Of a stretch of DNA of 64,000 nucleotides, positions 50,339-55,195 are shown piece by piece. The DNA lies in the NCBI GenBank assembly GCA_945860295.1, contig CAMAQH010000003.1, positions 186,001 to 250,000 of the forward strand. The letters are read 5' to 3'. Source of the DNA: Prosthecobacter debontii. GTDB taxonomy: Bacteria > Verrucomicrobiota > Verrucomicrobiia > Verrucomicrobiales > Verrucomicrobiaceae. Both the position numbers and the translations under genes were made by a program. The notes beneath the pieces were generated by a model. It saw nothing but the letters and a program-made list of their open reading frames with translations. It was not told the DNA's origin and ran no database searches. How positions within the stretch are numbered: position 1 is the stretch's first letter; the number at the start of each line of letters is the position of its first letter.

Positions 50339-52498
<2,160 letters not shown>

Positions 52499-52568
52499 TC
52501 AAAGCCCCGACATCGGCCTCAGCCGTAACCGCGCCACCGCCGCCTGGTCCTCATCAGCATGGCCATGA

Positions 52569-52937
52569 GTGATAAGGCGTGTAACCAGGCCTGCGGTGCT
52601 CGGAGCAGTCATTCAGTTGGGCAATTGCTTCGACCTCCTAGACACGCAGCACACATCCATGATGAAGCGGGCGCATGAGAACTACCTCCAGGCAGCTTTG
52701 CATCCCTTGCCCATCAACAAAGGGCTGATGCATCGGCTGGACTGCGCCGTCATCAATTACGGACTGCCCTGGATCGAGCAGCTTTGGAACTTCCAGTTCC
52801 AGACCGTGCGCGGAGTTTTTCAGGAGGGGCAGCCAGTGTTCACGGGCTCTGACATCCGCGAAAAGTCCCACATCCAGATTGCTGTACGCGATCCTGCGAG
52901 CATTTTAGGCTACTTCAAACCCCGCCAGCCCAACTAG
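52569..52937 (+). CDS. Hypothetical protein, probably 5'-truncated
   Basis: 122 aa from GTG 52569; an in-frame stop lies directly upstream, so no more N-terminal coding is available. PAVLGAVIQLGNCFDLLDTQ, the later CAVINYGLPWIEQL, and SHIQIAVRDPASILGYFKP form a pattern that I recall from a larger family whose N-terminal half, resembling a nucleotidyl or ADP-ribosyl-transferase-like fold, is missing here. I cannot name the family with confidence. It is followed 2 bp later by a small partner gene, and the pair may be a remnant of a mobile two-gene unit. Confidence 0.5.
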   Translation: MIRRVTRPAVLGAVIQLGNCFDLLDTQHTSMMKRAHENYLQAALHPLPINKGLMHRLDCAVINYGLPWIEQLWNFQFQTVRGVFQEGQPVFTGSDIREKSHIQIAVRDPASILGYFKPRQPN

Positions 52938-52939
52938 TC

Positions 52940-53161
52940 ATGCCTGCCACCAAGACAAAGCCCAGCGCATCCAAGGCCCGCAAACCACCCGCCCCCAAAC
53001 GGCCTTCCAAGCCCTTCCCAGGCTACCTGACGGATGAATGGTATCAATACACCATGGCCTGCATGGAGCGAGTGACCCCAGCCGAAGTGCGCCGTGACTT
53101 GGTGAAGTTCGGCATCATCGACAAGAAGTGTAATTACACGGCTCCGTATCGGAACGAGTAA
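52940..53161 (+). CDS. Small basic protein, partner of preceding gene
   Basis: 73 aa. The N-terminus is Lys/Pro/Ala-rich (MPATKTKPSASKARKPPAPK), probably disordered and nucleic-acid-like in charge, and a C-terminal helical part contains GYLTDEWYQYTMACMERVTP and AEVRRDLVKFGIIDKK. The small size, the 2-bp spacing and the basic tail resemble a two-gene toxin-antitoxin-like arrangement, but the upstream partner is truncated and no known antitoxin domain is visible, so that is only an idea. Confidence 0.5.
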   Translation: MPATKTKPSASKARKPPAPKRPSKPFPGYLTDEWYQYTMACMERVTPAEVRRDLVKFGIIDKKCNYTAPYRNE

Positions 53162-53217
53162 CTCGGGTTAACGCACTTTAAGCTAACGAGTTTCGCAGTT
53201 TAGATACCAGTGCTGCT

Positions 53218-54051
53218 ATGAATAATTCTTTCGAAACAGTCCAGATTGGTTCTTGGCGAGAAGTGTTTGATTTACCCGAGGTTAAACACGGTCCTTCTGT
53301 TTTCAGAGGACAAAGTGCAGATCAAGATTTGGAGACTTCGCTTGAAAGGCAGTTCCGCAGATACTCCATTAGGGGCGAACATTTTCTTCATAAAGAATGG
53401 GCTTTGCTTCGCGAGTTTCAGCGCAGGGCTCATCTCTATCTCCAAGATGTTCCAACCAACGAAGATTTGGTGGGTTGGATGGCACTCATGCAGCATCATG
53501 GAGCGCCAACAAGATTGCTCGACTTCACATATTCGTTCTTTGTAGCATGTTATTTTGCATTCATGGAGTGCTCCGAAAAGCCTGTTGTCTGGGCAGTCAG
53601 TGACCTTTGGCTGCGAGAATGCTTATCTCCTAACGAACTGAGGCATGATTTGCTCGGAAGACAGATTGATGTGGCAAATACTCAACTTAAAATGCTTCAT
53701 GAAGAGTTTCGTGGAGGAGGCTCTCCAACCAGAGTGCTGGACATGGTGTTGATGATCGAACCCACGCATCAGATCCAAAGATTAGCAGTTCAGCAGGGGC
53801 TTTTTTTGATGCCACTTAATCTCCACAATGGCTTCATGAAGAACCTGCTTTCCACTCCTTCACATTCTGATGACGCTGACTCCGACTGGATCTCTGAGAC
53901 CTCAAAGCACATTAAAAAATTGCAGTTTTCAAAGGAAGTTGCTCGGGAAGGGCTGCTAGAGCTAAGGAAAATGAATATTACTGCTGAGAGCTTGTTTCCG
54001 GGCATTGATGGCTTAGCAAAGTCACTGAACCACACCGTACTCGCTGTATAA
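53218..54051 (+). CDS. FRG-domain protein
   Basis: 277 aa, AT-richer than its surroundings. The FRG domain (named for its Phe-Arg-Gly motif) is present: VFRGQSADQDLETSLER near residue 29 and the diagnostic MQHHGAPTRLLDFTYS near residue 91. FRG proteins are found in phage-defence islands and as toxins, but their activity is not established. No membrane segment or signal peptide is visible. It stands alone between two other poorly known genes in an accessory island. Confidence 0.87.
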   Translation: MNNSFETVQIGSWREVFDLPEVKHGPSVFRGQSADQDLETSLERQFRRYSIRGEHFLHKEWALLREFQRRAHLYLQDVPTNEDLVGWMALMQHHGAPTRLLDFTYSFFVACYFAFMECSEKPVVWAVSDLWLRECLSPNELRHDLLGRQIDVANTQLKMLHEEFRGGGSPTRVLDMVLMIEPTHQIQRLAVQQGLFLMPLNLHNGFMKNLLSTPSHSDDADSDWISETSKHIKKLQFSKEVAREGLLELRKMNITAESLFPGIDGLAKSLNHTVLAV

Positions 54052-54067
54052 AAGAGCCTCGATCTTC

Positions 54068-54475
54068 ATGAGAACTCTAACCGCTTTTTTCGTCGGATTG
54101 TTGTCTGCTGCAACATGGGTTGCAGCAATTTATGGATGCCTTTTTGTGTTATCACAGACATCGTTCGATCACAAATCGATCCCAGGTTTTTTCTGGTAAG
54201 CATCAGCCATAACAATTCTAGCTGTTGCGATATGGTTTGCTCGTTTCGGCTACAATTACGTTTTCGCAAAGTGGAAGATAGAGCATGGGGCAGAATGGAC
54301 ATACTGCGCAGAGAGAGGTTTCTGCAATTGCGGGCTGCCAAAAGTGTGTAGCGCATTGGATTGCAATTGTGAGCGCCTTCATGTTTGTGCCTCGCCAGAA
54401 TGTGAATGTGATAGACCCAAAGTTTGCAGAAAGCCCAAGTGCAACTGCATCCACCCGAAAGCTTATGGCATGTGA
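54068..54475 (+). pseudogene. Two-helix membrane protein with Cys-rich tandem repeat, split by in-frame TAA
   Basis: ATG 54068 gives a 43-aa membrane peptide (MRTLTAFFVGLLSAATWVAA ... PGFFW) that stops at TAA 54197-54199. In the same frame, without any start codon, follow a second helix (AITILAVAIWFARFGYNYVF) and a Cys-rich tail of 12 Cys in the pattern C-x-C-x5-C-x4, repeated three times with period 13, plus a final C-x-C (FCNCGLPKVC, DCNCERLHVC, ECECDRPKVC, KCNCIHPK), ending at TGA 54473-54475. The Cys codons vary synonymously (TGC/TGT), so the protein sequence was under selection. Either a point mutation has inactivated it or the TAA is read through. The repeat suggests metal binding. Confidence 0.6.
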
Positions 54476-54537
54476 GCATAGACTGGTTGGGTGTGTAACA
54501 TTCACGACTTAGATCATAGCCCCAACTCGACATACAT

Positions 54538-54927
54538 ATGACTGCCAACACTCGAAGATTAATCTGGCCACCAAAGTGGTGGTTTTTACTTGCAGCAGTG
54601 AACTTGGCGTTCTTCGCCAATATGACCTACATGGACAACCGTACAATCCAGAGAAGGCTACTTGAGGGAACGAGCTTCATAAACCGACCTTCTATGTCGC
54701 AAAAACTAGGCTCAGCTTATTCACAAGGACTGTCTGTTGGCTTGGAAGAAAGTCTCTATGTTTTGGCCGAGCTCTTTGGAGGGCTCTTTCTTTGTGCTGT
54801 CCCTGCAATGTTCTGCATAATCGCAACACTTTATCAAAGAGAGTGGACTGGTTTACTTGGTTGGCTGCTCTCTACACTTGCTGTGCTAATGGTTGCAATT
54901 ATCCTGAGGCTAGCCGCTGGAACCTAA
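54538..54927 (+). CDS. Hypothetical membrane protein
   Basis: 129 aa, ATG 54538. Three hydrophobic segments are likely: LIWPPKWWFLLAAVNLAFFA near residues 8-27, LFGGLFLCAVPAMFCIIATL near 78-97, and GLLGWLLSTLAVLMVAIIL near 104-122. The loop between them (MTYMDNRTIQRRLLEGTS) is polar. No family is recognised. Codon use is AT-rich like the adjacent FRG gene and unlike the 55-kb genes. It is probably cargo of the same accessory island. From 54,928 to 55,195 there is no gene, only a tandem repeat. Confidence 0.5.
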   Translation: MTANTRRLIWPPKWWFLLAAVNLAFFANMTYMDNRTIQRRLLEGTSFINRPSMSQKLGSAYSQGLSVGLEESLYVLAELFGGLFLCAVPAMFCIIATLYQREWTGLLGWLLSTLAVLMVAIILRLAAGT

Positions 54928-55014
54928 CGAGAAAAGCCGGAGACGGAAGCGACAGCAATGGCCGTGTATAAAAATGTCGAGCGAATCTGAATGATCTGGT
55001 TTTTCGTGAGTGCT

Positions 55015-55120
55015 GCTCCTTTCGCTAGAAAAAGGAAAAGATGAGGAAAAGATGCGTGGCAAATAGTGCTCCTTTCGCTAGAAAAAGGAAAAGATGAGGA
55101 AAAGATGCGTGGCAAATAGT
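55015..55120. repeat. Two perfect 53-bp tandem repeats
   Basis: 55015-55067 is repeated identically at 55068-55120. Each unit begins GCTCCTTTCGCTAGAAAAAG, contains the AGGAAAAGATG phrase twice, and ends GGCAAATAGT. The inner sub-repeat makes the unit purine-rich. Because both copies are identical, the duplication is recent or recombining. It lies in the intergenic gap at the end of the accessory island. Two copies without spacers do not make a CRISPR. Confidence 0.9.
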
Positions 55121-55195
55121 GCTGCTGTGGGTTGAGTTACTGAATCCACACCGTGCATCCAGAACCACGGAGCTGTCACCGCAGGTGTGGTTTCT

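Follow-up and report, generated by a model that had tools for sequence, protein, structure and literature searches.

A recent nonsense mutation has probably disabled this copy of a small gene for a Cys-repeat membrane protein. The gene lies within the window, by which we mean the whole stretch of 64,000 nucleotides analyzed. In its intact form, of the type carried by two related genomes (G023 and G058), it would encode a ~135-aa protein in which two membrane helices are followed by a C-terminal tail whose 12 Cys fall into 13-residue units. In the present genome the stop would have arisen at an Arg codon between the two helices, on a mobile FRG island, and we infer that the tail protein is no longer made in this strain.

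Layout of the interrupted reading frame

A 43-aa open frame on the forward strand (54068..54199, +), comprising helix 1 and a loop, is closed by an in-frame TAA (54197..54199, +) and aligns end to end with the intact homologues of G023 and G058. The same frame continues (54200..54475, +) for 91 codons through helix 2 and a presumably cytosolic 12-Cys tail to a natural stop, TGA at 54473, and 54068-54475(+) translates as MRTLTAFFVGLLSAATWVAAIYGCLFVLSQTSFDHKSIPGFFW, the in-frame stop, and ASAITILAVAIWFARFGYNYVFAKWKIEHGAEWTYCAERGFCNCGLPKVCSALDCNCERLHVCASPECECDRPKVCRKPKCNCIHPKAYGM. The Cys region of the tail (54305..54448, +), delimited by its Cys codons and examined by a shuffle test, consists of one lone Cys, three units of C-x-C-x5-C-x4 and a last C-x-C. 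The translation agrees with the initial annotation, which had described a 43-aa membrane segment ending in TAA, followed in the same frame by helix 2 and a tail of 12 Cys with this arrangement. Its statement that ATG, GTG and TTG are absent between the TAA and helix 2 also holds, as the earliest in-frame codon of this kind is GTG at 54344, past helix 2.

The full Cys spacing pattern was never reproduced when the residues of the tail were shuffled (0/200,000), and all 91 codons remained open in just 0.5% of base shuffles. The part beyond the TAA contains no further stop and no indel, and 12/12 Cys are kept. The existence of homologues proves the frame 54068-54475 to be coding.

Homologues, selection and the age of the stop

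Comparison of the post-TAA part with 143 related genomes returned two clear relatives, in G023 (same genus; 79% identical after the TAA, E 9e-51) and in G058 (same family, Verrucomicrobiota; 48% identical after the TAA, E 1e-25), together with a divergent third in G045, which has one helix only and then the Cys tail. Both G023 and G058 encode the full-length protein without a stop, and the codon at the site of the TAA is CGA (Arg) in G023 and CGG (Arg) in G058. The initial annotation had proposed a search for full-length, stop-free homologues and a comparison of the codon at 54197; the homologues do not all end at the TAA, and the Cys part is not without homologues. It had also left two readings side by side, a nonsense mutation or readthrough. 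The first is supported by the intact, stop-free homologues and the Arg codon at the site, as expected of a recent nonsense pseudogene, and for the second we found no positive evidence.

A profile search across 68 genomes of the family placed the Cys family in only 4/68 (G023, G058, G045 and this genome), and the same type of search over broader samples of the phylum and class gave no convincing match. The lone phylum match (G179, E 2e-4) covered part of the profile and crossed a stop. Weak genome matches such as that in G008 were rejected as spurious, the matched stretch overlapping an ordinary 384-aa ORF. The Cys family had no match in Pfam, NCBIfam, PHROGs or PDB, in keeping with the earlier description of the protein as undescribed, and no relatives were found in viral contigs, plasmids or phages. 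Outside the family, the matches listed for a DNA pattern of two Cys units were all simple repeats of TGC type or frames lacking similarity. The Cys-repeat membrane proteins form a rare, undescribed family of sporadic occurrence in one bacterial family.

We next consider selection on the frame. Relative to G023, dN/dS was 0.14 before the TAA and 0.12 after it. The Cys codons of the tail mix TGC and TGT; the initial annotation had taken synonymous differences between the repeats as a sign of conservation at the peptide level. Omega after the TAA, estimated with a purpose-written codon model for three sequences, was 0.16 on the branch of this genome (95% interval approximately 0.08-0.30, taken from the profile), compared with 0.10 on the other branches. 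This difference was not significant (p 0.26, likelihood-ratio test), and the branch lengths of the model are poorly determined owing to a saturated outgroup. An omega of 1 for the post-TAA branch was rejected, being 14.0 worse in 2lnL. The part after the TAA was under purifying selection until recently.

The intact state of the tail also bears on the age of the stop. Of substitutions placed at random in the tail, approximately 15% would remove a Cys or create a stop, and none of this kind was seen. As no Cys has been lost and no stop gained, at most ~20 neutral substitutions, or ~0.07 per site (95%), can have accumulated since the TAA if the tail is unselected. Set against a synonymous divergence of ~1.1 between this genome and G023, this value means that the TAA either is young, falling in about the last eighth of the lineage if rates are equal on the two branches, or that the tail is still produced. 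A tail without detectable decay is fitted equally well by one that is still expressed. Against a single very recent hit, the change from CGA or CGG to TAA needs two substitutions; the site must therefore have passed through TGA or TAG, or else through a sense intermediate. From the Arg codon, CGA-TGA-TAA and CGA-CAA-TAA would both be plausible routes.

Alternatives to a nonsense mutation

Functional readthrough, by which few ribosomes would pass the TAA and yield a low level of full protein, the stop setting the dose while the tail stays selected, strikes us as unlikely. It would account for an undecayed tail under purifying selection, and the need for two steps from an Arg codon could point to a long-lived stop. 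The in-frame TAA, however, was seen in this genome only and is common to no relative, whereas programmed readthrough is recognized by a stop that persists across species together with a conserved extension. No suppressor tRNA was found (stop-reading anticodons in 0/42 tRNA genes from an Rfam search of a genome that is ~95% complete), and the RNA downstream of and around the TAA folded no better than shuffles (z ~0), placing structure at chance level. TAA is, moreover, normally an efficient stop and not usually leaky. A survey of bacterial in-frame stops speaks to both sides: many had dN/dS below 1, which suggested frequent readthrough, but most were short-lived and without functional recoding (PMC7918605). 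The same work describes in-frame stops in conserved bacterial genes as common and mostly short-lived, and as commonest in the genes of mobile elements (PMC7918605). The locus described here agrees with the survey's picture (PMC7918605).

A sequence or assembly error is improbable. The genome is a draft of 75 contigs and the only one of its species in the comparison, but an error would have to affect two bases of one codon (taking CGA as the reference) while leaving the gene free of frameshifts and otherwise clean.

Two further readings, in which both parts of the frame are used, we hold to be very improbable. The UAA could act as a switch: chains terminated there would have a single helix, and occasional readthrough would add helix 2 and the metal-binding tail; if true, this would amount to translational control of topology and dose beside a candidate phage-defence gene. 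Alternatively, and with similarly slim prospects, the gene could be split, with helix 1 made alone and helix 2 and the Cys tail produced by re-initiation at a rare start after the stop, for which in-frame ATA (54209) and ATT (54215) codons are available soon after the TAA. The relative in G045 provides a natural example of one helix with a Cys tail, but no relative is divided at the position of the TAA, ATG, GTG and TTG are all absent ahead of helix 2, and topology would be expected to shift once a helix has lost its partner.

A -1 frameshift at the T-run ahead of the TAA (slippery T TTT TTC ending at 54193) was rejected, because it leads into a frame that closes at 54351 and does not include the Cys tail. 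The 43-aa peptide as sole functional product was rejected on account of the conservation of the tail.

The island, its FRG gene and the predicted role of the Cys protein

The interrupted gene lies on an inserted island of ~2.7 kb (52495..55195) between recQ and an ABC1-kinase gene. G039 and G003 lack the island and show an empty site, with a few bases separating recQ from the ABC1-kinase gene. The island has a GC content of ~46% vs ~56-58% in the flanks, consistent with its earlier designation as AT-rich; its three genes from the FRG gene on have 45-46% GC and a GC3 of 44-46%, and the GC3 of recQ is 69%. These features mark the island as apparent mobile DNA. In G037, a ParE-type toxin-antitoxin pair is located downstream of recQ. 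With an empty site in G039 and G003, the FRG island here and the ParE-type pair in G037, the recQ/ABC1-kinase junction looks like an insertion hotspot. The island also carries an orphan membrane ORF of 129 aa (54538..54927, +), for which no relative was found in the 143 related genomes, Pfam, NCBIfam or PHROGs. Just inside its right end, a 53-base unit is present in two perfect tandem copies (55014-55119).

Sixteen bases upstream of the Cys frame lies the gene of a 277-aa FRG-domain protein (53218..54051, +), a candidate phage-defence protein of type PDC-S15. The initial annotation had named this neighbor correctly: it belongs both to Pfam FRG (PF08867, E 6e-23) and to PADLOC PDC-S15 (E 5e-35). 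Among phage protein families, it matches one without a known function (phrog_4962, E 1.5e-24). FRG domains have been assigned to the ADP-ribosyltransferase superfamily, with a proposed role as anti-viral effectors that consume NAD (PMC9503650). G023 retains the FRG-Cys pair (FRG 64% identical), which there follows ileS and precedes a Y1 (IS200-like) transposase gene, so that the pairing is seen in two genomes at differing chromosomal sites. The same search found no close relative of the FRG protein in G058 or G045. In contrast to the FRG candidate defence proteins (PDC-S15), the Cys protein is not an FRG protein and stands without an FRG neighbor in these two genomes. Because the Cys gene accompanies the FRG gene in mobile islands but is also present without it, the role of the Cys protein is probably independent of FRG.

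The two helices are joined by a short loop and have Lys/Arg at both ends, a positive-inside pattern which suggests that both termini are cytosolic and that the Cys tail resides in a reducing compartment. Structure prediction returned the two helices and a tail without a confident fold (mean pLDDT 53, tail below 40). Judged from the Cys pattern only, the likeliest role would be that of a membrane-held metal-thiolate cluster, with the cytosol-facing tail keeping zinc, or perhaps copper or cadmium, at the membrane. Should the tail bind metal, the intact protein would represent a bacterial metal-thiolate protein anchored in the membrane. The nonsense mutation is itself ordinary; it is the intact family, with two helices and 13-residue Cys units, that is worth keeping.

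Metallothioneins (bacterial SmtA/BmtA, animal MT) likewise contain a short Cys-rich stretch with C-x-C motifs, but the Cys protein differs from them in having two membrane helices as an anchor and regular 13-residue units, and none of the four homologues matched a metallothionein model in Pfam, nor in NCBIfam or PDB. The zinc cluster domains of the CXC, or tesmin-TSO1, type combine C-x-C with single-Cys spacing in a manner comparable to the Cys tail. They occur in nuclear DNA-binding proteins, whereas the Cys protein is a bacterial membrane protein, and the Pfam CXC-domain model gave no match at E up to 10 (HMMER's filters on). The closest parallels to the stop itself are the cases of Belinky et al. 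2021, which likewise combine one in-frame stop with a conserved gene and a dN/dS well below 1, whereas the gene described here belongs to a small family that has no name, lies on a mobile island and is known to be affected in a single genome (PMC7918605).
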